Assembly: GCA_013115135.1 (NCBI GenBank)
Contig: JABANP010000322.1
Location: 1-58,973, forward strand
Reading direction: 5' to 3'
DNA from: Perkinsus olseni
Taxonomy: Eukaryota; Perkinsozoa; Perkinsida; Perkinsidae
DNA length: 58,973 nt
Shown in pieces: positions 8,169 through 51,690 of this stretch (within the stretch, counting starts at the first letter, position 1; each line of letters opens with the position of its first letter). The notes under the pieces are model-generated. The model searched no databases. It was not told where the DNA came from and saw only the letters and a list, made by a program, of their open reading frames with translations. A program made the translations under genes and the position numbers.

Positions 8169-11100
8169 GATAAAACCATCCAGAATTGGTGGTACTAGTA
8201 GTATTTGTCGTCGGTGATGTGTTAGTATGTTGATTGATGTTGTTAGTACCACCATCTGTGGTAGTAACGGATGATGATGATTATTAACAAGACTGAGGAT
8301 GTACTATTACATGGTGTGGCTGGTGGGGTGATTGGTGATGGTGGTGGTGGTGGTGGCACTATAGCATCATCACCATCTAGTGCCGATGGTGTTGTCCCTC
8401 CACCAACAGTACTACCTCTTATTTGTCCAAGAAAGGTTCGACACATATACCCTAGATTAGTATTCTGAGGATATTAACAACAGTAGGATAATGGCTGTAG
8501 TAGTTGTAATAGAGAAAACATTACCTGTTTTAATACATCATCATAACATGATGATATCATTATTGTATTCTGAATAACCCTACTAGTGATAGCAAACATG
8601 ATAGTGGCTGGTATAATGGCGGGTATGGTAGTAGTAGTAACAGCACCACTACTAGATGTACCTGCTGTACTACTAATGTTAGTAGTAATATTAACACTGT
8701 CAAAAGGTTTATTACCACTGAATATCCTTCTTCCTGCTGCTGTTGTGGCAGTCGATGATGATGTGGTAATGGTAGTATTATTATTAAAGATACTCTTCCA
8801 CATAAAAAAGGTTGATACACCCGCCATGGCACCAAAAGTTAAACCATAATTATTACGTCTCCATATCGGAGCACGCTCGTATGGTGATAATATAATACTA
8901 ACAACAACAGCAACAACAACAAGCATCAGCAGCAGCAGCAGACTGGTAATAACACTGATAACAACAATAGCAGCAGCAGTTGTTGTTGTTGTTGTTATGT
9001 CCAGATCCTGAACTCCGTTGGATCTGGAAGTTAGCGATCGCCCGAGATATCCGAAACGGCTGGCCGACCATCGGTGATGACAACTATTATTTTGGTTTGA
9101 TGATATTTTGGACTCCTATGGCGTGGTATATAAGCAATTAAGATAGATCTAGTGATAGCGTGTGCACGCATGAGTCCGTATTGAGCCGTAGCCATCTTGG
9201 CTCAAGTTTGTTTGTTCTAATCTCCATCCTTCCCCTCGCCTCGTGTTCCGCAGTCCTGGGACGGTGCAAACTAACATGGTGACAGCTGTCAACAACGACC
9301 CATCGGCGGACGGCTCCCAACGCTCGATCGACTACAATAAAGATGAGGCGTCGATCCAGAAGGAGCTTACGGCCAAGAGAATGGAACGCGGGCGACTACG
9401 AGGGAAGCTGACGAGGTTGCGAGAGTCCATCAGAAACATCCACGTCGGTGAGGACGAAGACAAACCAGAGGAGCTAGAGACCCTGGAGATACAGGAGAGC
9501 CTTCTGAAAGACCAACTACGGCGAGCAGAACTGGACGTCGCAAAGCTGGAAGAGGACAGTCTCCTGATCCTACGCGCGCAAGCGCAGGCCAGCGTGAGGT
9601 CAAGAGCGTCATCATCGGTGGCATCATCTCAACGCCCATTTCTGTCGGTCGACTCGAACGAGAATGAGAAGAGCAAGGGCGAGGGTGGTGACAATGATGG
9701 CTCCACGTATCCTCTGGGGAGGGCAAAAGTGACCGAGACTACCGAGCAGAAGGCTACCGTGACGACGGGCAAGACTGGTGTGACCACCACTGGTATCAAC
9801 GACGATGAGCTACCGGTTCGACGACATCCACAACGAGGAGATGATGACCGGCCGGTGGCAACGGTGAACAAGGTACGGTGTCGGTCCTCAGTCCGTTCTC
9901 TGGAATCCCAACTGATGGAGTGCGAGGAGGTCAGGAACTGCAAGGTGAGAAATCGGGGGGATGGCGTTTCGGTTGGGTTGGTATCGAAGTTAGTGATGCC
10001 GAAATGTCGAACTGTAGTGTCATTGAGGAGTCATCTGGATGTTTGTGAGGCAATTCTCGTAGAAGCGGGTGCAGGGGAGTTCGTGACGCGAGGGGCGTCG
10101 CCGGACGCCTATTTCCGTCCGGCCGAAGGTCTCAAAATCACGGTCGTGGAACGCCTGGTAGAGACACTTGGGGGGTCCCCAGACACACAGACACTCGTGG
10201 AGAGTGCACGGGATGCCGTGGAGCGATCTTGCTGGGACTGGAGGGTCATAAGAAAACACCTGCTGAACAGATTTGCACGAAGATCCACCTTGATAGCTAG
10301 GCTCAACCAGGAGCTAGCGGCACTCAAGTACTCGGGCGCTAAGGACATAGACCGTTTCCTCGAGGTTGGCGAAAGGGTTTTTAGACTGGCAGAGGCCACG
10401 TCTCATGACAAGAGTGAACATCGAAGGGTCGTTAAAAGGATACTTAACACTCTGCCCGAGAGGGATAGGGTCGACATTATCCAAGAGGTCAAGAGGCTCT
10501 ATCGGGAGGTCTCGGGGAGTTACACGGCGTCCTTGGACAAGGACTGGGCTGGCATGTTTCCTTTCACCACATGCATTGTGGGAAACGATGAACTGGATGA
10601 AGAAATCACACTTGTTGACATCATTAGGGACAGGTTTAGAACCCAAGAGTCTGCGGGTGTCTGTGGGGATGTCGACAAGATACATCAGATAACAGGTTCA
10701 CCGGGGAAGGACACCAGTTCGGGTCAGAAGCAAGGACGGCCAAGCGATAAGGGGAGCTTAGAGGATTGGGCCAAGCAGTATCCATCAGTGTGGGTGGTGA
10801 CCATGAAACAGTTCACGGAGGAAGAAGTTAGAGAAAACTTCAAGCCGGATGACATTAAACGAGTCGGAATGCGACCTAAGGGGGGTGTACGCAAGTACTA
10901 TGCTGTGATAGGCTATAGGGATGCTGATAGGGGAGGCGCAGTGGTGAGAGAGGTCATGAAAGCGACCGAAGGGACGGACCGCTTCAGGGCTAGGGAGTTC
11001 GTCTACAAGAAGTCGGGAAACGGGCAAGGCCGGGCATGACCGAGGAGGGGCATGCGCCGGCCGATAAGACATCCTCTTATTCACTGCTCAAGGGCAAGGA

Positions 11101-14100
11101 ACCACGAGGTTGGCACGCCAGTGGCGAGGAGGGTCAGTCACCGATCCAGAGCTCAGCTGATCACACTGACTACCAGTGTGACCGGGTCTGCCTCGTATAC
11201 CTGGAGGTTCCACAAGAGCTCAGGGTGGATGTAGAGCTGATCAGTGCACAGCAACCGACTCGAGCCATGAGGAAGTTGAAGGCTACAATAGACCCGGGAG
11301 CGGGTCGCACCTATCTTTGCGTCGAGCCGGCGGACTGTCCGCTGCCGACGAAGGAGATAATGAGGTGGGCTCAGTTGGCAGATGGCTCGAAGACGTCAAT
11401 CGTCAAGGCGGCCGAGGTACACCTCACGCTGAGTTTCGCTGACGGCAATTCGGTGAGTATCGGACCTATAGAGGTGGGCCTGTTGCCCACGGGGTCGGCT
11501 GGGGAGGCCAGCATGCTTATCGGTAGGGACGTCGGGAAGCTCGTGGGCCTCAGAGTCGATTTGGCCTCGGGACAGGTCACATGTGAAGCGTCGGGCCACG
11601 TGGGAACCGAGGGATCCTTGAGCCACGATGGGGTGGACTTGATCCGTTATGTTGAGTCGGAGGTTTGGCCGCTGGTAGGGAAACCAGCGACGGGGCTGAC
11701 AACCTTGCCATCGCCAGTAGAGGACCTATCAGGACCACGGGTGAAGCCTCGTTTGAAGGGTCCGGAGCGAGAGGCGGTAGGTCGGGTGGTAGAATCTCTG
11801 GTAGCCAAGGAGGCCGCGGAGGTTCCTGGTCTACCGGGATACACTCTAGAGTTCAGAAGGCTCCGAGAGGAGGAGAAGAAAGACGTGGACGATCAGGAGG
11901 CATCGGTGTTCGCGGACCTACCTAAGGGAGACGGGGGTCCGATCAGGATACCACGATATGAAAAACCAGCTTTCGCGAAGTTGAGCGACGATGAGAAGAC
12001 CATATATCGGCGTTTGACATCGGAGTTCGTGAACAGAGGCTGGTGGAAGGAGGAAACTGTCGAGGAGGAGGGTATGATCTACCTTCCGCACTCTCCGGCT
12101 TTCCTTGCACAGAGGGAGCGCAAACCTAGAATCGTACTGGATTGTCGAGGGGTGAACAATCATCTGGGGAAGGTGTCGGCGGCAGCTAGGATAGCTCCCG
12201 CGGAGATCCTAGCAGCAACCAGGCTTACAGGAGGTTTCATAGTCACGGGGGATTTGGAGAAGGCGTACTACGTCTGTAGGCTACTGAGACACAGGGTAAG
12301 GATAGCGGCCGCTGAAGCGTCCTTCGTGTCCGACAGGGTGACGTTCGGTCTCAATGGAGGAGCCGGAATTCTCCAAAAGACGGTGCAGGAGATCAGCGAA
12401 GAGGCGCGCAGGGAGCTAGAGGCGTTCGGTCCGGGACAAGAGGGCCGGACTAAGATAATCCTCATTCTCCTCTGGTACATGGACGACATGAGCCTGCAGG
12501 GATATTGCGTTCGACGACTAGTGGCCAGCTTTGCTTTCATCTGTGCCGTGTTGCTCCGTTTCGGATTCGGCATGCAGATCAAGAAGCTGTGGGCCTTGGT
12601 GCCTCCCAGCGCAGTTCAGGGTTTCCAGGAAGCCTGTCGGGAGTATGAGATAGATATTCCGAGAGTGGATGAGGGAATCCTTCTGGGAACAGGGATCTCC
12701 ATAACCGAAAGTGAGCTCGTCATCGACTGCAAGGGAGCAGAGAGATGGGAGAAGGTAGAGAAGTACCTGGACAAGGATGAGACTCAGAGGTCCAAGGCAG
12801 CAGCATTCTCGGCAGCAGGAGCGTGGGGCCACGACCCGGTATCAGCTCATCCACGACGCAGACTTCAAGCGGACTTACTAAGAGCGATAACAGGCAAGGT
12901 TTACTCGAGTCTAGGATGGCACGAGAATTTTAGACCGAACCTGATGTCGAAGGAGGTCAGGACGGCATATGAGGAGGTCTTGCGCTGGGTGAGGGAGGAC
13001 CGCAGGGAGGGTCCGTGTTTGCACAGAAGCTCGTTAGGAGTAGTGGGATCCTCTCATCTGACGTTGGTACTGGAGACGGATGCATCTCTGCTTGGCTGGG
13101 GGTATTGTTTGTGGGCTACCCGGGAACAGGGCCTGTCATCTTTTGCGGAGGGTCATTTTTTCGAAGTGTTGTCGGGAGCGGGCCGGTGGAATCACCGAGA
13201 ATCGTGTTATCATTCGAATAGGCGGGAACTGAAGGCACTCCTCGAAGGCCTCCAGAGGACAAGCAGAGCAGTGGAGGCATGGTGGCACGCGTCCGAGGGG
13301 GGCGCCGAGTGCACCATCTTCATCCACGTGGACAACAGTGCGACGGTAAGTTGGGGTAACGGCCGTCGGCCGTCGCGCGCTCTGGAGGTGCGGGCCATAG
13401 TTCGTCTAGCGGATGCGGTGAAGGGAGAGATACTCCATTTACGCAACCTGGGGACCGGGGTGGAGGTGAAGATGGAGCATTTGAAAGGAGAGGACAACGT
13501 GAGGTCGGACTCGCTTTCGCGCTTACTGGAGCGTCCATGTTCGGGAGGGGAGCAGCTGGGACGGCTACTTCAACAACACCTCGACGGACCGGTGGCGTTG
13601 GCGATTGCGTGTGACGACTTCATTTCCCGGATAGGAGACTTGGACCCGGGGCACTCGAGGGTGGACAGTGACATCATAAGATACTTCCCGGATACGACGG
13701 AAGCGGTATCCGAGAAGGAGGAGAGTAGGGATGCGACGGCGGCCTTGGCAGAGCGGATGGCAGCGCAGGTGTGGGACCTGGACGGATTATTAGAGTTGTG
13801 GAAGGCGGCGAGATTCCTTTTTCGCGGTTGGAAAGCCATCGTAAAGGGGGGCGAAAGAGCGTTATCGTATCCAGAGGCATACTCGGAGGAGGATCGGGGC
13901 AACATGATAGCGTCGTTGCAGCGGACGGCGTGGAACAAGGAGAAATGGGAAGTGCTGCGAAGGGAAAACCGTTTCGAACTTTCAGGTTCTGGCTCTTCTC
14001 TCCCTCTTCAGTATAGGTGCCCAGAGACGGACGGTAGCATACGACTGTGTTACTACGTTCCCAAGCCTTTCCGGTTGGTCCGCGGCCTGCTGGTCCGTAC

Positions 14101-15819
14101 TTGTCATCGTCGGTGTAGTCACGGTACTGTCTTGGTCACTAAGGAACGGGTCTACCAGGCTGGTTACTTCTCACCAGCACTGGCGAGACTCGTCAAGGAT
14201 GAGATAGCTACCTGCCTCATCTGCCAGCGGCTCTCCGCTAGAAAGAAGAGGGACCAACCCTTTGGGGTGGCGGGTCCGGGCTCGATTAACCCGGAACTGT
14301 CCTACGAGAGTCTGCTGCAGATGCGGAGGCCACCGTACTACGTGGCAGCAGTAGATGTCATCAAACTGTCGACCGACCCGCCATTGACGTACCTGTCTTG
14401 CTACTGTCTTCAGACTCGTCATGCCTGCTGGGTGGCGATAGGAAGCATGGAAGCGATGGAGTTGGTGTCGGCCGTCAGGCGAGCACAACTCCGGGAGGGC
14501 GGCTTCAACTACATCATCGCGGATGGAGCCGTTCTTACCAAGGCCTTTGTGTCGGAGGTAAGACGGGAGCTGGGATCGGCGGCTATACCGATCGATGCGC
14601 GGGCCCCGTGGTGCAGCGGTGTAGAGACTCATCATCGTTTTGCACTGAAGGTCGGTCGCGTCCTTTTGTCCCGTCGGTTTCGGGGAGTGAGAAACTGGTC
14701 TCTGATGGCTAAGCAAGATCTGGCTGATGAGCTGATCTGGCACCTTAATCATCGACCCCTCGGACGCGCGGATGTGTCATCTGATGGGACGCTCCTCATC
14801 CTCACCCCTGACCATCTCCGGTACGGATATCTCCGGGAAGGTAAGGACTGCAGCGGGGCGGTATTTGACTCGTCTCAGCTGGGGTCGCGTCGCGAGTACT
14901 TCGTAAAGACGTTCTTGTCTTTGTACTGGCCTTTGCAAAGACGGGAAAACATCGGTACTCGATTTGTCAAGTCAGGGACAGGTTTCAAGTGTGGCGATGC
15001 GGTCCTGATCTATGGACCCAAGTCCAAGGGATGTCCCGCCTGGCGTTGTGGCTGGGTACTCGAAAGGCTGAGTTCCCGGCGATATAAGGTTCTATACGCC
15101 GACAACGGCAACCGACGGCTGGAGAGGATCACCACCGAGAACCACTACAATCTGTTACCACTTCGCATTCGTGGTCTGGCCGGCGGCGTGGATGCTGAGT
15201 TGGAGCAGGGCCCTACCTTTGTCGGTCGGCGGCTGAGGTTCCTACTCACTCACGAGGACGGTGACAATCAGTTTCACTGGTGTTCTGTGGTTCATCACCG
15301 TGGCGGATCGGCTGAAGGTAAGTCTAGGGTCCTGGTGGTCTGGGATCAGGCTGATCCCGGGGTCTCGGCCCTGGAATGGCTTTGTCTTGATGATGAAGTA
15401 TGGAGTGGCGAAGATTCGACGGCCTCTCCAGGGGGGCGTGTCCAGATCCCGAACTCCGTTGGATCTGGAAGGTAGCGATCGCCCGAGATATCCGAAACGG
15501 CTGGCCGACCATCGGTGATGACAACTATTATTTTGGTTTGATGATATTTTGGACTCCTATGGCGTGGTATATAAGCAATTAAGATAGATCTAGTGATAGC
15601 GTGTGCACGCATGAGTCCGTATTGAGCCGTAGCCATCTTGGCTCAAGTTTGTTTGTTCTAATCTCCATCCTCCCCCTCGCCTCGTGTTCCGCAGTCCTGG
15701 GACGGTGCAAACTAACATTATCACCGATTCTGTATCATCCATGTCTGTAGTTGATTATCCAACTTCTTAAGCTCATCCTTACTCGGGGGTGCTAGGTCAT
15801 TATTAGAATACTCACTCAT
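7668..15819 (-). CDS. Small predicted membrane protein, gene split by a retrotransposon in intron 1
   Basis: A five-exon model keeps frame throughout: 15725-15819, 8525-8897, 8311-8464, 8052-8255 and 7668-8008 (minus strand). All introns are GT-AG, and the model gives 388 codons plus stop. The start is the ATG at 15819, followed by a charged N-terminus (KDELKKLDNQLQTWM). Exon 2 carries SPYERAPIWRRNNYG followed by a hydrophobic segment with Gly and Phe (LTFGAMAGVSTFFMW). Later come CYDDVLKQ, a poly-Pro stretch, about 23 Gln coded by (GTT)n at 8101-8170, and a His/Asp-rich tail with a TWDDIRA motif near the end. The layout loosely recalls OCIA-domain mitochondrial proteins, but I hold that as a weak guess. 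Intron 1 is 6,827 bp and becomes about 107 bp once the 6,720-bp LTR element is removed, the usual intron size here. Confidence 0.65.
8101..8170. repeat. (GTT)n microsatellite, coding poly-Gln on the minus strand
   Basis: An almost perfect run of about 23 GTT triplets. In exon 4 of the surrounding minus-strand gene it reads as CAA codons, hence a long glutamine tract. Likely length-polymorphic. Confidence 0.9.
9127..9133 (+). promoter_or_regulatory. TATA-like box of the LTR
   Basis: TATATAA, 58 bp upstream of the first base of the embedded spliced leader. Duplicated at 15568-15574 in the 3' LTR. The position fits a U3 promoter, but the start site is unknown. Confidence 0.55.
9185..9206 (+). 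other. Spliced-leader sequence embedded in the 5' LTR
   Basis: 22 nt: GCC followed by GTAGCCATCTTGGCTCAAG. This matches every position of the dinoflagellate/Perkinsus trans-spliced leader consensus as I know it, with C at the one pyrimidine-variable position. No GT donor follows (next bases TTTGTT), so it is not an SL RNA gene: it sits as the leader would in a finished trans-spliced mRNA, 69 nt ahead of the gag ATG. Confidence 0.9.
9276..11039 (+). CDS. Retrotransposon Gag
   Basis: 587-residue capsid-type protein that would package the element RNA. The frame is open upstream to 9243, but the first ATG is at 9276-9278, so I start there. Residues 20-110 form a strongly charged coiled-coil-like region (KRMERGRLRGKLTRLRESI, then Glu/Leu-rich heptads), followed by a Ser/Thr-rich linker and a globular region from about residue 200. 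No CCHC zinc knuckle is present, unusual for Gag but known in several element families. The start codon straddles the LTR end and the presumed primer-binding site (TGGTGACAGCTGTC at 9277). The stop TGA at 11037-11039 overlaps the first ATG of pol (ATGA). Confidence 0.85.
   Translation: MVTAVNNDPSADGSQRSIDYNKDEASIQKELTAKRMERGRLRGKLTRLRESIRNIHVGEDEDKPEELETLEIQESLLKDQLRRAELDVAKLEEDSLLILRAQAQASVRSRASSSVASSQRPFLSVDSNENEKSKGEGGDNDGSTYPLGRAKVTETTEQKATVTTGKTGVTTTGINDDELPVRRHPQRGDDDRPVATVNKVRCRSSVRSLESQLMECEEVRNCKVRNRGDGVSVGLVSKLVMPKCRTVVSLRSHLDVCEAILVEAGAGEFVTRGASPDAYFRPAEGLKITVVERLVETLGGSPDTQTLVESARDAVERSCWDWRVIRKHLLNRFARRSTLIARLNQELAALKYSGAKDIDRFLEVGERVFRLAEATSHDKSEHRRVVKRILNTLPERDRVDIIQEVKRLYREVSGSYTASLDKDWAGMFPFTTCIVGNDELDEEITLVDIIRDRFRTQESAGVCGDVDKIHQITGSPGKDTSSGQKQGRPSDKGSLEDWAKQYPSVWVVTMKQFTEEEVRENFKPDDIKRVGMRPKGGVRKYYAVIGYRDADRGGAVVREVMKATEGTDRFRAREFVYKKSGNGQGRA
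11015..11076 (+). promoter_or_regulatory. Programmed -1 ribosomal frameshift signal at the gag/pol junction
   Basis: GGGAAAC at 11015-11021 is in the gag frame as G GGA AAC, a canonical X XXY YYZ slippery heptamer, and a -1 slip enters the pol frame. A 6-nt spacer (11022-11027) precedes a stem: 11028-11033 (GGCCGG) pairs with 11057-11062, and 11034-11038 (GCATG) pairs with 11051-11055, with one bulged G (11056). Loop bases GAGGA (11042-11046) can pair with TCCTC (11072-11076), making an H-type pseudoknot. The pol frame is open only from 10994, so the signal sits inside the 46-nt overlap. Confidence 0.8.
11036..15475 (+). CDS. Retrotransposon Pol: protease, reverse transcriptase, RNase H, integrase
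   Basis: 1,479 codons from the first ATG, probably made as a Gag-Pol fusion through the frameshift signal. The aspartic protease lies near residue 84 (IDPGAGRTY, an unusual DPGA instead of DTGA/DSGA) with LIGRDVG further on. Reverse transcriptase has VLDCRGVNN near residue 365, VTGDLEKAYY near 400 and the YMDD catalytic box near 480. RNase H spans about 675-830 (ETDASLLGWGY, NRRELKALLEGL, HVDNSATVSWG). The integrase zinc finger has two His and CLIC near 1020-1065. The catalytic triad candidates are AAVDVIK, IADGAVL and SGVETHH near 1105-1200. A small SH3-like or chromodomain-sized tail follows. No stop or frameshift is seen. The last 12 codons lie in the 3' LTR. Confidence 0.93.
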   Translation: MTEEGHAPADKTSSYSLLKGKEPRGWHASGEEGQSPIQSSADHTDYQCDRVCLVYLEVPQELRVDVELISAQQPTRAMRKLKATIDPGAGRTYLCVEPADCPLPTKEIMRWAQLADGSKTSIVKAAEVHLTLSFADGNSVSIGPIEVGLLPTGSAGEASMLIGRDVGKLVGLRVDLASGQVTCEASGHVGTEGSLSHDGVDLIRYVESEVWPLVGKPATGLTTLPSPVEDLSGPRVKPRLKGPEREAVGRVVESLVAKEAAEVPGLPGYTLEFRRLREEEKKDVDDQEASVFADLPKGDGGPIRIPRYEKPAFAKLSDDEKTIYRRLTSEFVNRGWWKEETVEEEGMIYLPHSPAFLAQRERKPRIVLDCRGVNNHLGKVSAAARIAPAEILAATRLTGGFIVTGDLEKAYYVCRLLRHRVRIAAAEASFVSDRVTFGLNGGAGILQKTVQEISEEARRELEAFGPGQEGRTKIILILLWYMDDMSLQGYCVRRLVASFAFICAVLLRFGFGMQIKKLWALVPPSAVQGFQEACREYEIDIPRVDEGILLGTGISITESELVIDCKGAERWEKVEKYLDKDETQRSKAAAFSAAGAWGHDPVSAHPRRRLQADLLRAITGKVYSSLGWHENFRPNLMSKEVRTAYEEVLRWVREDRREGPCLHRSSLGVVGSSHLTLVLETDASLLGWGYCLWATREQGLSSFAEGHFFEVLSGAGRWNHRESCYHSNRRELKALLEGLQRTSRAVEAWWHASEGGAECTIFIHVDNSATVSWGNGRRPSRALEVRAIVRLADAVKGEILHLRNLGTGVEVKMEHLKGEDNVRSDSLSRLLERPCSGGEQLGRLLQQHLDGPVALAIACDDFISRIGDLDPGHSRVDSDIIRYFPDTTEAVSEKEESRDATAALAERMAAQVWDLDGLLELWKAARFLFRGWKAIVKGGERALSYPEAYSEEDRGNMIASLQRTAWNKEKWEVLRRENRFELSGSGSSLPLQYRCPETDGSIRLCYYVPKPFRLVRGLLVRTCHRRCSHGTVLVTKERVYQAGYFSPALARLVKDEIATCLICQRLSARKKRDQPFGVAGPGSINPELSYESLLQMRRPPYYVAAVDVIKLSTDPPLTYLSCYCLQTRHACWVAIGSMEAMELVSAVRRAQLREGGFNYIIADGAVLTKAFVSEVRRELGSAAIPIDARAPWCSGVETHHRFALKVGRVLLSRRFRGVRNWSLMAKQDLADELIWHLNHRPLGRADVSSDGTLLILTPDHLRYGYLREGKDCSGAVFDSSQLGSRREYFVKTFLSLYWPLQRRENIGTRFVKSGTGFKCGDAVLIYGPKSKGCPAWRCGWVLERLSSRRYKVLYADNGNRRLERITTENHYNLLPLRIRGLAGGVDAELEQGPTFVGRRLRFLLTHEDGDNQFHWCSVVHHRGGSAEGKSRVLVVWDQADPGVSALEWLCLDDEVWSGEDSTASPGGRVQIPNSVGSGR
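15439..15717 (+). repeat. 3' LTR
   Basis: 279 bp, same ends as the 5' LTR at an offset of 6,441 bp. The pol ORF runs 12 codons into it and stops at 15473-15475. Carries TATATAA at 15568-15574 and the spliced leader at 15626-15647. Confidence 0.95.
15626..15647 (+). other. Spliced-leader sequence embedded in the 3' LTR
   Basis: Identical to 9185-9206 at all 22 positions, with the same flanks. The match shows that the leader is copied as part of the element rather than acquired at one end after insertion. Confidence 0.9.
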
Positions 15820-20390: not shown

Positions 20391-20567
20391 TGCAAGAGAA
20401 GAGGTTATCATTCTTGCTGCATCCCCCATGACCATGTCCATCTTCATCATTCTGCCACAAGTTCATTATTATTATCATTTTATGAAGCGTATTACTTATT
20501 GTATAATTAATCACAATCATCTCCTATCCACACCTATCGAGTTACGAACTCCAGTAGGGCAGTAGTT

Positions 20568-21020
20568 GAACGACGACACTACTAGTAATGGCAGTAGTAG
20601 TAGTAGAACGACGACACTACTAGTAATGGCAGTAGTAGTAGTAGAACGACGACACTACTAGTAATGGCAGTAGTAGTAGTAGAACGACGACACTACTAGT
20701 AATGGCAGTAGTAGTAGTAGAACGACGACACTACTAGTAATGGCAGTAGTAGTAGTAGTAGAGCGACGACACTACTAGTAATGGCAGTAGTAGTAGTAGA
20801 ACGACGACACTACTAGTAATGGCAGTAGTAGTAGTAGAACGACGACACTACTAGTAATGGCAGTAGTAGTAGTAGTAGAACGACGACACTACTAGTAATG
20901 GCAGTAGTAGTAGTAGTAGAACGACGACACTACTAGTAATGGCAGTAGTAGTAGTAGTAGTAGTAGTAGAACGACGACACTACTAGTAATGGCAGTAGTA
21001 GTAGTAGAACGACGACACTA
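20568..21020. repeat. 38-48-bp minisatellite, 12 copies, with variable (AGT)n spacer
   Basis: The unit core GAACGACGACACTACTAGTA followed by ATGGC and an (AGT) run of 4 to 8 triplets recurs at about 20572, 20612, 20650, 20688, 20727, 20766, 20804, 20842, 20884, 20925, 20973 and 21012. The core is nearly invariant (one GAGCGACGAC variant) while the AGT count varies. The last copy is cut by the MITE-like element. Confidence 0.95.
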
Positions 21021-21561
21021 CACCATTTCCAGACCTACTTAGTAAAACCCCACAGCAATTTAATAAAGCCCAGAGCAAATTAGTAAAACCCCAAAGCAAT
21101 TTGATTTTATGAAAGACCAATTTAGTAGAGCCCAACAAAATCACTAACAAGTACGGACAAACTCACAACGTCAGCCTACATTAAGTGAGCCCTCCTTATT
21201 CTACAGATTGCGGGTTAAAGTTTAATCGTTAAGCATTGGAATTGAGCCTCCGACCGTCATGCCTAACATAGCTGAGCAACAAGGGTACAGTGTTTGGGCG
21301 TGATTGAAGCAAAGTTGCAAATTGTATACAAAGTTGCATAGTAACCTCTTCAACCCCTTTTGGAAGCAACTTCTCACAGTACGGCAGGAGGTACTCTGCC
21401 TTCACTCCACCGCCACTCATGGGCCGGAGTCCCCGGGCCGGGAGGAAGGACCATCCGGATGCGTCTCGCGTGCCGACTAAATTGCTTTGGGGTTTTACTA
21501 ATTTGCTCTGGGGTTCTACTAATTTGCTCTGGGGTTTTACTAAGTAGGTCTGGAAATGGTG
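21021..21561. mobile_element. MITE-like element with about 85-bp terminal inverted repeats
   Basis: The left end (CACCATTTCCAGACCTACTT, then AGTAAAACCCC repeats) is matched in inverted orientation at the right end (AAGTAGGTCTGGAAATGGTG) with only a few differences over about 85 bp. The inverted repeats are themselves built of a 31-bp subrepeat (AGTAAAACCCCAGAGCAAATT type) present three times on each side. The interior, about 370 bp, has no transposase. The element is embedded in the last minisatellite copy, and satellite-like bases resume on the right (AAGTAGTAATGG). The target duplication is unclear. Confidence 0.85.
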
Positions 21562-42859: not shown

Positions 42860-43687
42860 ATGAGTATGTCTGGTCCATCTAGCATTCTCACTCCGGACTA
42901 TTTTTTTGAAGGTGGTGGTGGTGATAACCGCAATAACCTCACATCAATCGATGATGCATTACTAGCAACAACTGACGATCAACAACAACAACAAGGAGAA
43001 GAAGAAGACCAGCATCAGCAGCAGCAGCAGCCTCTGTCTACAGAGGATGGGGCTATGGTTAAGCATAATAATGGTTATGTTGCTACTAATGATATTGATG
43101 ATGTTGCCAAATAATATGATACCTGATGGTATGAATCCAGTATTGGACAATGTTGTCGCATCCTTCGAGCTCTGCGTAAATGATGATGCTGATATTATTG
43201 ATATCAAAGACATTGCTTTTAAACTCCGTAATTGTGAGTATAACCCTCGTAAACAGAATTGTGCGGTAATCAGATTTACTAACCCTACTAAAGCCACTTG
43301 CCACATTTATCGTAATGGCAAGGTTATGATTAATGGTGCATATACTATTGAATTAGCAAAGAAGGCTGGTAAAAAAGTAGTAAAGCTCCTTAGGAAGATT
43401 ACACATAATCCTAGTATAAAGTTGAATAACTTTAAAGTTGAGAATATGATAGCATCAGTTGATGTAAGATTCCCAATACGTTTGGAAAGGTTAGCCTATG
43501 ATCATAGTGCATATGCTACTTACGAACCTGAGTTATCCCCTGGCTTAACATTCCGACTGTTCGATCCTAAAATGGTTATTATGATATATGTATCTGGTAA
43601 GATATCTTTTGTTGGTGCCAGGACATTAGAAGATATTACCAAAGCATTCTGCAGTATATATCCATTATTAACACAATACAAACATTG
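42860..43687 (+). CDS. TBP-like protein 1, diverged TATA-binding protein
   Basis: Saddle-fold core promoter factor with two direct repeats: IAFKLRNCEYNPRKQ, AVIRFTNPTKATCHIYRNGK near 43220-43320, and FKVENMIASVDVRFPIRLER, YATYEPELSPGLTFRLF, MIMIYVSGKISFVGAR near 43430-43620. Against canonical TBP the four DNA-intercalating Phe positions read Gln, Tyr, Ser, Tyr. The N-terminus from the ATG at 42860 is acidic and Gln-rich, as in its neighbour. The N-terminal frame meets TAA at 43112-43114, while the core is in the +1 frame from at least 43101. Homology of IPDGMNPVL with IPESVYPVL of the next copy shows that this junction is coding. The core could start at the ATG at 43101 or 43116, or a +1 shift occurs after AAA (43109-43111). 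Divergent from HSP110. Confidence 0.8.
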
Positions 43688-43791
43688 ACCATCACCACCA
43701 CCATACTGATCTGTGCAGATCATCCCTACTCTTGCGTTGCCACCACCATCACTGTATGCCATTCTCTAATAGTTGTTGTTATCTCCCCTAC

Positions 43792-44699
43792 ATGCTGGCA
43801 GATTTTGATATCGACTCACTGCTGGTTGGTCATGACGACCAGAAGCAACAACAACAAGAAGAAGAAGGAAGAGAACGGCAGATGATACCATCCGGTAGGG
43901 GACACAAAAACAGCCTGCTGTCTTTCAGGGGGTATCTTATCATTCATACTCAGGTAATGTTGATGGATCGGATAATAATGTGTTAGCATCAGCACAGCAA
44001 GATGGTTGTTATGATGAAACAGTTACAAGTACAACAACAAGTCCAAATGGTAGTGATGATAACATTATCATGACTACTACTAATGATGATGGGGAAGATG
44101 GTATAATACCAGAATCGGTATATCCAGTATTAGAGAATGTTATAGCATCAGTTGAATTGGGTATCAATGGACGACATAGCGATGATGGTCATGATCATGA
44201 TGGTAGTGGTCTTATTGATTTGAAGAAAGTAGCATTCAAAGCACGTAATGCTGAATATAATCCTCGGAAAGTTAATGCAGTAGTAATAAGATTCAGAGAA
44301 CCAAAAGCAACTGCTATGTTATATGGCACTGGTAAGGTTATGGTCACTGGTAGTAATTCTGAAATAACAGCAAAAGATGCGGCGAAGAAGGTTGCGAAAA
44401 TTGTAATAAAAAGTGGTTACCCTGGTGCAAGATTTAGGAAATTTAAAATTGAGAATATGGTTGCATCAGCGGATGTCAGATTCCCAATACGTTTGGAAGC
44501 ATTAGCTTATGAACATCGTTCGTATTGTAGTTATGAACCGGAAATATATCCTGGTCTGGTATTCCGTTTATTCGAACCTAAAGTTGCTTTGTTAATATTT
44601 GTATCAGGAAAGATTGTATTTACTGGTGCTAAAAATAGAGATGATATAAGTAATGCTTTCCGTAGCATATACCCATTATTATTGAAGTATCAGAATTGA
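43792..44699 (+). CDS. TBP-like protein 2
   Basis: Two exons: 43792-43894 and 43954-44699, joined in frame through a 59-nt GT-AG intron. Exon 1 gives MLADFDIDSLLVGHDDQKQQ, an acidic/Gln start like that of TBP-like 1. The core has ARNAEYNPRKVNAVVIRFRE, TAMLYGTGKVMVTGS, FKIENMVASADVRFPIRLEA, SYEPEIYPGLVFRLF and LLIFVSGKIVFTGAK. At the four intercalating-Phe positions it has Val, Tyr, Tyr and Phe. A 14-residue His/Asp/Gly insertion (GRHSDDGHDHDGSG) sits in the first repeat before IDLKKVAFK. Exon 2 is near-identical to TBP-like 3. Confidence 0.88.
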
Positions 44700-44798
44700 T
44701 AACAACAACAACAACCCAACCAACACTATCATCATCACTCTCCTACTACTGCTACTCATCATCATCATTATCGTCATGTGGTGGTATTACGTATGGGA
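43950..44798 (+). repeat. Segmental duplication, copy 1 (TBP-like 2 exon 2 and 3' flank)
   Basis: Nearly identical to 46365-47220. The match begins at the last bases of the intron (CTCAG, exon starts GTAATG at 43954) and continues past the stop into the 3' flank, where small indels appear in (AAC)n and (ATC)n runs. The coding part differs by one GAT codon. Confidence 0.9.
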
Positions 44799-45259
44799 TG
44801 GTACAAAGATTGTAGAGTCATGTAACGTCTACCAGCCGGATTGGTATAACTATTGTATTCCATACTACCTGTAGTATTGTTATTATCACCATTATCACGT
44901 TATGCTCACATTCATCAATAATACTCTCCTTATCCTTCTTCATCCTCTTCCTCCTTCGGTTGTTGTTGTTGTTGTCTATTATTGGACTGGTAGTATTATG
45001 TATTCTACTGTATCTAGTACCACACGTTACATTATTGTAACTAAATAGCAGATAACACCAACAACAACGACACTGCTATCCTCAAGCAGCATCAACAACA
45101 ACTATTACTATTACGTCGTCCTTCATCACGTCATCATCATCACCACCGTTACTCCTTCTTCTGCTATTACTGCTGCTGCTGCTAGCATAACAACAACGAT
45201 ATCTAAAAGTAGATGCTGTTTGGTTGTGATCAATTCGCCAGTGTAACCATTCTCTCGTC
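44799..45259. other. Intergenic, no gene seen
   Basis: Pyrimidine-rich spacer with CAT, CAA and CTT repeats downstream of TBP-like 2. No ORF or RNA that I can support. Confidence 0.5.
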
Positions 45260-45972
45260 ATGATTGGTAATCCTCAGGGATGGATGACAACATCATCATC
45301 ATACCACTTGTTTACCAAACCCATCCAGAGTGGTAGTAATAGCATCTTGGATATTACTATGATAGACATACCATCATCTCCTTCTACTACTACGACCACC
45401 ACTGATGAATTCCTATTGGACCTTCTCGGATCGGAAGGTGGTGGAGGAGGTATTACTCATAACACTACCACCACTAGCATCATCATCATCTATAGGATCT
45501 TTGTTCAGGTGATGTTGGGGATGCCTTATCAACAGCAATACGCTCAGTACCAACTCTCAGAAGAGGCTCTACTGCTACGGAAGGTAATGATAGATGGTGC
45601 TCATGGAGGTGTTCGATTACCCACATCATGTTGTATATGTTGTCATTATTATCGTCATGATGGTAGTGAGGGACCCCATGGGCACTTCCTGAGAATGTAT
45701 GATACTACTACTATTACCAGCAGCAGCAGCAGCCTGGCATCATCAACTGATCGTATAAACTATTGTCCATGTCATTTTTCTTCCCTAATAATCACCATCC
45801 TTATGAATCCTATGATTACTATTGATGAGCTCGAGTGGTACCACTGAGTCAGGCTGCTGCTGCTGCTGCCTCGAGATTCTTTGTGGACTCCAACGCAGTA
45901 GTGTATTGGAGTTATGGAAGAACATACTTGCATCTCCTCCGACAGCAGCATCATGAACACTACTCAGGGTTC
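45260..45972 (+). CDS. Doubtful hypothetical gene between the TBP copies
   Basis: An ATG at 45260 opens a 195-codon frame with MTTSSSYHLFTKPIQSGSNS, DEFLLDLLGSEGGGGGI and QYAQYQLSEEALLLRK. A second stretch at about 45845-45970 reads ASRFFVDSNAVVYWSYGRTY and LHLLRQQHHEHYSGF before TAG at 45970-45972. Both look like protein rather than repeat shadow, and a splice could join them. No family, and the minus strand is also open over 45785-46021. It could instead supply upstream exons of TBP-like 3. Confidence 0.3.
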
Positions 45973-46298
45973 TAGCGATCAGTGGTTCGCTAAGAGACCA
46001 CTCGGCAGCCTCAATGTCCATCCTAGTTCAGCGGCTGAACCGTCACCACCCAGTTAAGGCAGATCGAAGAGGAAGGCGGAGGAGTTGGCTGAGCAATCCC
46101 CATGTGGAGTAGACAGCTATCCTTCCTCCCTCGCCATAACCGAAGTTCTGCCATCTGTGCTGTGCTCCGTACGAAGTCCCATCAACACTGCTATGTGTCC
46201 AAATGTTCGAATTAGCCGTCTAGTGTAGTCATTCGCGGCATTATAGGCATGTAGGCTACTCTAAGATATCTGATATAAGTCACTCAAGTATTACTGAC

Positions 46299-47117
46299 AT
46301 GCTGTGGGGGCTGCTGGTCCTCATGTCGATGATCATCTACTTCTCTCTCAATCGTCGATCATCCTCAGGTAATGTTGATGGATCGGATAATAATGTGTTA
46401 GCATCAGCACAGCAAGATGGTTGTTATGATGAAACAGTTACAAGTACAACAACAAGTCCAAATGGTAGTGATGATAACATTATCATGACTACTACTAATG
46501 ATGATGGGGAAGATGGTATAATACCAGAATCGGTATATCCAGTATTAGAGAATGTTATAGCATCAGTTGAATTGGGTATCAATGGACGACATAGCGATGA
46601 TGGTCATGATCATGATGATGGTAGTGGTCTTATTGATTTGAAGAAAGTAGCATTCAAAGCACGTAATGCTGAATATAATCCTCGGAAAGTTAATGCAGTA
46701 GTAATAAGATTCAGAGAACCAAAAGCAACTGCTATGTTATATGGCACTGGTAAGGTTATGGTCACTGGTAGTAATTCTGAAATAACAGCAAAAGATGCGG
46801 CGAAGAAGGTTGCGAAAATTGTAATAAAAAGTGGTTACCCTGGTGCAAGATTTAGGAAATTTAAAATTGAGAATATGGTTGCATCAGCGGATGTCAGATT
46901 CCCAATACGTTTGGAAGCATTAGCTTATGAACATCGTTCGTATTGTAGTTATGAACCGGAAATATATCCTGGTCTGGTATTCCGTTTATTCGAACCTAAA
47001 GTTGCTTTGTTAATATTTGTATCAGGAAAGATTGTATTTACTGGTGCTAAAAATAGAGATGATATAAGTAATGCTTTCCGTAGCATATACCCATTATTAT
47101 TGAAGTATCAGAATTGA
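46299..47117 (+). CDS. TBP-like protein 3, partial duplicate with a new N-terminus
   Basis: From 46370 onward it is the same protein as TBP-like 2 apart from one extra Asp in the His/Asp loop. The four intercalating positions are again Val, Tyr, Tyr, Phe. It lacks the MLADFDIDSLL exon; the upstream sequence is unrelated. The frame stays open upstream to the ATG at 46299, which would give a hydrophobic MLWGLLVLMSMIIYFSLNRR leader, odd for a nuclear factor. Alternatives: an unrecognised 5' exon spliced at the conserved acceptor (CTCAG before GTAATG), internal initiation, or a pseudogene with an intact core. The stop is at 47115-47117. Confidence 0.75.
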   Translation: MLWGLLVLMSMIIYFSLNRRSSSGNVDGSDNNVLASAQQDGCYDETVTSTTTSPNGSDDNIIMTTTNDDGEDGIIPESVYPVLENVIASVELGINGRHSDDGHDHDDGSGLIDLKKVAFKARNAEYNPRKVNAVVIRFREPKATAMLYGTGKVMVTGSNSEITAKDAAKKVAKIVIKSGYPGARFRKFKIENMVASADVRFPIRLEALAYEHRSYCSYEPEIYPGLVFRLFEPKVALLIFVSGKIVFTGAKNRDDISNAFRSIYPLLLKYQN

Positions 47118-51013: not shown

Positions 51014-51097
51014 TGATGATGATAAACAGCACGACGGTCTTATGAGCCTGAATAGGTTCTGATTAATTGACTGCTACTAAACCCAGCTCTCTGAATA
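51014..51097 (+). ncRNA. C/D-box snoRNA-like unit A1
   Basis: C box ATGATGA at 51016-51022, D box CTGA at 51091-51094, about 80 nt apart. The 13 nt CTAAACCCAGCTC end one base before the D box and complement the conserved LSU rRNA stretch GAGCUGGGUUUAG. Upstream, CACGACGGTCT complements the next rRNA bases AGACCGUCGUG and ends one base before ATGA, a plausible D' box. Confidence 0.7.
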
Positions 51098-51127
51098 CTC
51101 CGAAAATGGTCGATTAGATGATAATCA

Positions 51128-51217
51128 TAATGATGATAAACAACACGACGGTCTTATGAATAGCCTACTTGTCGTAGGATCTGATTCAAATATTATTAAC
51201 TCAGCTCACTCTGATGA
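51128..51217 (+). ncRNA. C/D-box snoRNA-like unit B1
   Basis: C box ATGATGA at 51130-51136, terminal D box CTGA at 51211-51214. It shares the CACGACGGTCT guide plus ATGA with unit A. The D-box guide AACTCAGCTCAC can pair with GUGAGCUGGGUU of the same rRNA segment (one G-U pair). A further CTGA lies at 51181. Confidence 0.62.
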
Positions 51218-51235
51218 CTATTACTAATTACTTTA

Positions 51236-51319
51236 TAATGATGATAAACAGCACGACGGTCTTATGAGCCTGAATAGGTTCTGATTAATTGACTGCTACT
51301 AAACCCAGCTCTCTGAATA
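51236..51319 (+). ncRNA. C/D-box snoRNA-like unit A2
   Basis: Essentially identical to A1, 222 bp downstream. C box at 51238-51244, D box at 51313-51316. Confidence 0.7.
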
Positions 51320-51349
51320 CTCCGAAAATGGTCGATTAGATGATAATCA

Positions 51350-51439
51350 TAATGATGATAAACAACACGACGGTCTTATGAATAGCCTACTTGTCGTAGG
51401 ATCTGATTCAAATATTATTAACTCAGCTCACTCTGATGA
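51350..51439 (+). ncRNA. C/D-box snoRNA-like unit B2
   Basis: Essentially identical to B1, 222 bp downstream. C box at 51352-51358, D box at 51433-51436. Confidence 0.62.
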
Positions 51440-51457
51440 CTATTACTAATTACTTTA

Positions 51458-51541
51458 TAATGATGATAAACAGCACGACGGTCTTATGAGCCTGAATAGG
51501 TTCTGATTAATTGACTGCTACTAAACCCAGCTCTCTGAATA
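51458..51541 (+). ncRNA. C/D-box snoRNA-like unit A3
   Basis: Same as A1 and A2, another 222 bp on. C box at 51460-51466, D box at 51535-51538. The flank after it diverges (ATCATTCATTTG), so no B unit follows. Confidence 0.7.
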
Positions 51542-51606
51542 TCATTCATTTGAAAAACAAAAAAATGCAGCTCGACTCTAGATGACTATCACTAATGACT
51601 ATTACA

Positions 51607-51690
51607 TAATGATGATAAACAGCACGACGGTCTTATGAGCCTGAATAGGTTCTGATTAATTGACTGCTACTAAACCCAGCTCTCTGAATA
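51607..51690 (+). ncRNA. C/D-box snoRNA-like unit A4
   Basis: Fourth A unit. C box at 51609-51615, D box at 51684-51687. Spacing from A3 is 149 bp, breaking the 222-bp period. Confidence 0.7.

Follow-up and report, generated by a model that had tools for sequence, protein, structure and literature searches.

Why should a retrotransposon carry the spliced leader (SL) of its host inside its long terminal repeats (LTRs)? The question is raised by the stretch of Perkinsus olseni DNA analysed here (the window, 58,973 nt), which contains one gag-pol LTR retrotransposon with an SL in both of its LTRs, a pair of 279-bp direct repeats (Table 1). By alignment its pol frame runs RT (reverse transcriptase)–RNase H–integrase, the Ty3/gypsy-like order being protease, RT, RNase H, integrase, with the integrase zinc domain below the Pfam cut-off; among the related families introduced below, Pfam finds rve and H2C2 below cut-off in F2, a protease above it in F5 and RVT_1 just below it in F3. 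The gag-like product resembles F2 gag (25% over 363 aa, E 9e-27), and the pol ATG overlaps the gag stop in ATGA (11036-11039), an arrangement that would require reinitiation or a frameshift. Target-site duplications flank both this element and one of F2 (L059, CTT/CTT), each weak evidence alone because it is only 3 bp long. A DNA search of the genome found no other copies of the window family (F7), and none of 7995 candidates scored in the protein collection was related to its pol at E 0.001. Ribosomal protein S3 places the host in Perkinsus, with 96% identity to P. olseni over 96% and 100% identity to P. marinus over 86%. Elsewhere the window holds a row of three similar ORFs (two of them nearly identical; 43047-47117), which by eye we take to be like TATA-binding protein genes, a 222-bp segment duplicated perfectly in tandem with additional partial copies (51016-51690), and an array with 38-bp spacing (20485-21083).

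Table 1. Features of the SL-bearing retrotransposon, in window coordinates.
Feature	Position	Strand	Basis
Target-site duplication TTA, left	8995..8997	+	sequence
5' LTR	8998..9276	+	direct repeat, 98.9% identical, TG...CA ends
TATATAA upstream of the 5'-LTR SL	9127..9133	+	sequence; putative promoter
Inverted repeat TTGAGCC...GGCTCAA flanking the SL	9181..9205	+	sequence
SL in 5' LTR	9185..9206	+	bases 9186-9206 equal host SL bases 2-22
Pyrimidine-rich stretch ending CAG, possible acceptor	9207..9253	+	sequence; post-SL pyrimidine enrichment in nine families
gag-like ORF, ATG at LTR edge	9276..11039	+	similarity to F2 gag
Primer-binding site TGGTGACAG directly after 5' LTR	9277..9285	+	motif TGGYGACA
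pol ORF: reverse transcriptase (YMDD), RNase H, integrase	11036..15475	+	alignment; Pfam scores weak
Purine tract AGGGGGGCG preceding 3' LTR	15430..15438	+	sequence
3' LTR	15439..15717	+	direct repeat, 98.9% identical, TG...CA ends
TATATAA, 3' LTR copy	15568..15574	+	sequence
SL in 3' LTR	15626..15647	+	sequence
Target-site duplication TTA, right	15718..15720	+	sequence

The string GTAGCCATCTTGGCTCAAG stands at 9188-9206 and 15629-15647 and, at up to three mismatches, nowhere else in the window, where its chance expectation is 0 (100 shuffles). A first, sequence-only reading of this DNA had assigned the full 22-nt leader to both LTRs. In the host assembly (61.5 Mb, 968 contigs) the SL RNA genes in arrays (n=36) read ACCGTAGCCATCTTGGCTCAAG followed directly by GTAAA, and ACCGTAGCCATCTTGGCTCAAG is the 22-nt leader reported for P. 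marinus (PMC9399869); the window leader is thus the host's, at both positions, over bases 2-22, while base 1 is G in the window and A in the host genes (ACCGTAG...CAAG/GTAAAT, the slash marking the end of the leader), so that the earlier assignment held for 21 of the 22 bases. The same reading was right that a TATATAA precedes the SL (by 59 nt, counted to SL base 2), that the gag ATG begins 69 nt past the SL end, and that no donor GT follows the SL, which continues as CAAG/TTTGTT where true SL RNA genes continue as CAAG/GTAAAT.

Genome-wide, CCGTAGCCATYTTGGCTCAAG has 85 exact matches, all with C at the variable place, against 0 for the reversed control, and on this result and the shuffles a chance origin is rejected; 199 places lie within three mismatches of the SL against 2 for the control. 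Of the exact matches, SL RNA gene arrays hold 36 and nine LTR families 46, and three lie elsewhere (contigs C289, C445 and C810), as judged from the context of 84 of them, C270:43077 being placed by its array. In one array (C268:207896-235713) the SL RNA genes are often paired about 165 nt apart inside a larger repeat, and some SLs are mutated; on C289 (L035, 4453-7473) two SLs lie at a distance of 67 nt, and an ATG that opens a 493-codon frame comes after the second.

The nine families, defined by flank clustering and by search for a purine tract and primer site, thus account for all but three of the 49 exact SLs that lie outside arrays, each family with one or both of these marks (F1 12, F2 12, F3 4, F4 3, F5 6, F6 2, F7 2, F10 2, F11 3); four further contexts (F8, F9, F12 and F13) lack clear LTR marks and are excluded from the nine. 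Every family has at least one copy in which a G-run ending in C precedes the LTR, and TGG(C/T)GACA follows it in F1, F2, F5, F6 and F7, a primer-site motif common to these five families and five SL-less relatives. The F4 and F6 LTRs are partly similar; the flanks of the remaining families did not cluster. The sequence-only reading had proposed a genome search for elements with the leader in both LTRs, and six families of the host genome contain them: F2 (two elements), F3 (its second LTR truncated by the contig end), F5, F6, F7 and F11. Two F1 matches on C11 were rejected as an element, since their common outer flanks make them look like a duplicated single LTR. SL RNA genes or pseudogenes are likewise ruled out as the nature of the LTR copies, which have no intron and an LTR context, as are SL-tagged retrogenes, the SL lying inside both LTRs of gag-pol elements. 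The tie between element and host leader claimed for this one locus is well supported: the same 21 nt recur in the LTRs of nine families, the other eight having them at a comparable place, and in the host SL RNA genes.

Past the SL, the first ATG occurs at position 24-42 (eight families) or 70 (F7); it falls within the LTR in F1, F5 and F6, and opens a frame of more than 100 codons in F1, F2, F3 (L017), F5, F6, F7 and F11, an order of SL and ATG that corresponds to the layout of an SL-tagged mRNA. Across the nine families the 30 nt past the SL are pyrimidine-rich (0.69 versus 0.43-0.55 upstream; 0 of 5000 draws). An AG occupies exactly positions 6-7 after the SL in F2, F4, F5, F6 and F11, and in F6 (L018, L019, C156) the SL runs directly into GCTCAAG, which repeats the final seven bases of the SL.

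Among 13 SL contexts, with one representative each, mean identity is 0.99 over the SL, a figure biased by the use of the SL as bait, and 0.27-0.34 over the adjoining 21-nt blocks on either side. Comparison of the SL with the rest of the LTR across copies, as had been suggested, was made with whole LTRs as bait, which reduces this bias, and returned a weak excess: the SL is exact in 24 of 55 F1 and F2 copies versus 17.8 expected from identity (p 0.011), rows that do not span the SL (5 of 37 in F1, 16 of 39 in F2) being left out. The 5' edge of the SL is ragged: base 1 is T in seven contexts, G in three, A in two and C in one, compared with A in the SL RNA genes, and a search for variants at bases 2-3 and 20 found 19 places that keep the last 19 SL bases but differ at base 2, and five that differ at base 20, of which two belong to the SL RNA array. 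It is as if the cDNA had stopped before the cap, and P. marinus cDNAs often end inside the SL, which has been attributed to 5' modifications (PMC2868825). One variant, CTCGAG, is common to three F1 copies (C20, C48 and C370), so that an altered SL is heritable and any renewal of the SL is not strict.

Relatives of these elements also exist without an SL. The F2 reverse transcriptase, likewise a less biased starting point than the SL, detects 79 pieces in 66 genomic loci, at least 11 of which have a co-oriented SL no more than 7 kb away (a minimum, since the count used the 49 exact and 15 one-mismatch places); at the seven loci where a 5' SL was found, it lies 2359-2840 nt before the RT. For 10 of the other 55 loci we read 1.8 kb upstream, where the best SL match was 15/21; five of them (L073-L076 and L080) have a primer site with more than 800 nt before it and no SL in that stretch, and the remaining five, in which no primer site was seen, are not counted as SL-less. 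The SL is hence not indispensable. Between SL-bearing families, identity of the pol proteins or RTs is about 21-45%, and a tree of 13 RTs groups F7 with F10 and F6, and F2 with F11, and sets F5 and F3 apart on long branches. The minimum number of SL-state changes on this tree is one, on a branch with support of 37/33, and one or several gains both fit.

Possible traces of the process that maintains the SL come from copies that differ just downstream of it. Among 41 fetched family rows, a subset of all copies, comparison with family references gave gaps of at least three bases after the SL in L055 (46 nt), in L041 (both LTRs) and L057 (7 nt each), and in L050 and L069; from the limits of the LTR match, we read L050 as a copy that probably ends there and L069 as a probable insertion. 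In F5 a 7-nt stretch follows the SL in L007, L040, L061 and the diverged L067 (as GTTTCAC), and also in the P. marinus 'L2-like' primer discussed below; L041 and L057 are without exactly this stretch. In F1, L055, which is preceded by a purine tract, is without the 46 nt from the SL end to an AG; it is known from one LTR only, the 3' LTR of an element on C748 whose 5' LTR was not found in 14000-15300. Both junctions would fit the products of splicing the SL onto that AG. Random deletions of 3-60 nt produce such junctions in 14 of 3277 cases for F1 (0.43%) and 9 of 4379 for F5 (0.21%), and the plain alternative, a deletion through the shared AG, would give the same products.

SLs of this kind have been seen before in P. 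marinus, in which more than 100 genomic SLs without an intron are reported (>60 PmaSL1, >40 PmaSL2), most beginning with T and variable downstream, alongside SL RNA genes of both L-type and S-type (PMC3101222). They were judged non-functional as SL RNA genes and, in the text available from that study, are not assigned to LTRs; 3' RACE and RNA blots on them gave no clear product (PMC3101222), and putative ESTs from parts of genomic SL loci are mentioned (PMC2868825). Two of the P. marinus sequences match our families: the 'L2-like' primer matches F5 sequence downstream of the SL, and the 'S-like' piece, with a 21-nt SL, is similar to F10 (PMC3101222; joined from printed primers, it scores 20, the best of 300 shuffles 17). 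F10 in the host genome has the 22-nt SL, and the related P. marinus locus has the 21-nt SL, a form also in use in P. marinus. In the host genome no SL RNA gene of the 21-nt type was found, and the one exact match to this type, in an F2 LTR (L071, C291:40275), is perhaps a one-base loss. On these few loci, the kind of SL carried by LTRs seems to follow the SL types of the host, and SL-bearing LTRs offer a home for the intronless SL copies of P. marinus. A search of the viral contig collection found an SL in a single contig (L072, IMGVR_UViG_3300045993_001077) and none of the 21-nt type; two TTTT-form dinoflagellate-type SLs lie 147 nt apart at 2746-2913, the second followed by an ATG 60 nt later, and this is perhaps a retrogene-like dinoflagellate stretch.

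Trans-splicing should harm an LTR element, because the 5' end of its RNA is replaced and the two copies of R no longer match; a host leader encoded in the LTR would solve this mismatch. We lean, with some reserve, towards the view that the SL in the LTRs of the nine families is likely the first part of R, kept because the element RNA is likely trans-spliced before reverse transcription. We infer a transcription start within U3, ahead of the SL (the TATATAA of the window family would suit this), and then splicing of the host SL RNA onto an AG, either that of the CAAG closing the encoded SL or one further down, as the two junctions would fit. The mature RNA would then begin with the SL and reach its ATG within 70 nt, a spacing that is observed; reverse transcription from the primer site would yield a short DNA ending in the SL complement; and this end would anneal to the SL of the 3' R and regain U3, so that promoter and SL are restored in both LTRs. 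The SL would thus serve as the homology of R and be renewed, at least partly, from host SL RNA. Of this picture, the SL sequence, its placement, its distribution over families and the junctions are observed; the start of transcription, the splicing and the strand transfer are inferred. The sequence-only reading had offered two explanations, capture of the leader by reverse transcription and its retention by selection through a match to the 3' R; they are best joined, with the SL as the start of R, and the CTCGAG passed on in F1 speaks against strict renewal. In its fullest form, that a guild of Perkinsus LTR retrotransposons replicates via host trans-splicing, with R receiving its 5' end from host SL RNA in every cycle and the 3'-LTR SL serving as the docking site for first-strand DNA, the proposal is a serious possibility to which we would not give even chances.

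Several observations would favour a trans-spliced RNA: the SL appears constant while flanks differ between families, the host SL and its RNA genes are in the same genome, nearly all non-array SLs are in LTR families, six of which have it in both LTRs, the F10-related P. marinus locus carries that species' 21-nt SL, and two junctions that appear derived are bounded by AG while SL base 1 is not fixed. Against it stand the relatives without an SL, the inherited CTCGAG, the weak excess of intact SLs within families, the want of a clear RNA product from the P. marinus loci in the reported experiments (PMC3101222), and a TAT just upstream of the SL that could also suit transcription starting at the SL itself.

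This last point belongs to the strongest competitor, leader mimicry without splicing, in which the SL encoded by the LTR would itself be the transcription start, as happens in an SL RNA gene, and the SL-like 5' end would serve translation and strand transfer. The bases upstream of the SL are AT-rich with a TAT within 12 nt in six of the nine families (43 of 5000 draws gave as many), SL RNA genes carry TATAGG or TATATG at the same distance, and SL base 1 is free; yet the TATATAA of the window family lies 59 nt away, and the AG-bounded junctions are left unexplained, and we consider mimicry unlikely, though worth keeping in view. A single old capture under selection, in which an SL-tagged RNA was copied once and the SL stayed internal to R for translation or RNA handling with no present trans-splicing, strikes us as distinctly doubtful. 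It is permitted by the fewest-change count on the RT tree and by the mutated SL that three F1 copies have in common, but the support of the relevant branch is low, the junctions are again unexplained, and 21 identical bases across such divergent RTs would need very strict selection, yet SL-less relatives exist. A role of the SL as a promoter motif, which has been put forward for the SL copies that precede dinoflagellate retrogenes (PMC6050394), seems very improbable: the TTT(G) named there is CTT(G) in the host SL, and a promoter has no need to end sharply at CAAG. Ordinary SL-tagged retrocopies or chance, already disfavoured, we regard as scarcely credible, for although such relics are common in dinoflagellates (PMC6050394), all but three of the 49 matches are in LTR families, the control was empty, and the genome search found no tandem relic of the form CAAGCCATCTTGGCTCAAG.

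If the trans-spliced-RNA reading is true, a splicing RNA of the host is a replication part of mobile elements, and the life of LTR elements in hosts with SL trans-splicing becomes directly testable; in addition, SL-primed libraries and SL-based counts of retrogenes may include retrotransposons. Our search of the literature on the SL with LTRs or retrotransposons, or on Perkinsus with either, mostly in papers outside subscription, turned up no description of an LTR with an SL inside it, and none appears in the available text of PMC9399869, PMC6050394, PMC12014239, PMC3229502, PMC11453091, PMC4558846, PMC3315495 or PMC2868825.

Several known systems are nevertheless related. Cer1 of C. elegans, a Gypsy/Ty3-related element, also has RNA that is trans-spliced to an SL, but SL1 is found on a short spliced mRNA, the 8-kb RNA is not trans-spliced at that site, and the available text mentions no SL in the LTR (PMC3315495). 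Transcripts of the ta-TRIM solo LTRs of Echinococcus likewise meet the SL machinery, but they compete for the acceptor of a host gene, again with no SL in the LTR mentioned in the text available (PMC4558846). In the SL-tagged retrogenes of dinoflagellates, as here, the SL has been written into DNA by reverse transcription; theirs, however, are copies of host genes, whereas the Perkinsus SL lies within both LTRs of autonomous elements, downstream of U3 (PMC6050394, PMC12014239).

A different bond with the SL is that of the non-LTR retroelements SLACS, CZAR, CRE and NeSL, which insert into SL RNA genes. To our knowledge these do not carry the SL as a part of their own, unlike the Perkinsus LTR elements.
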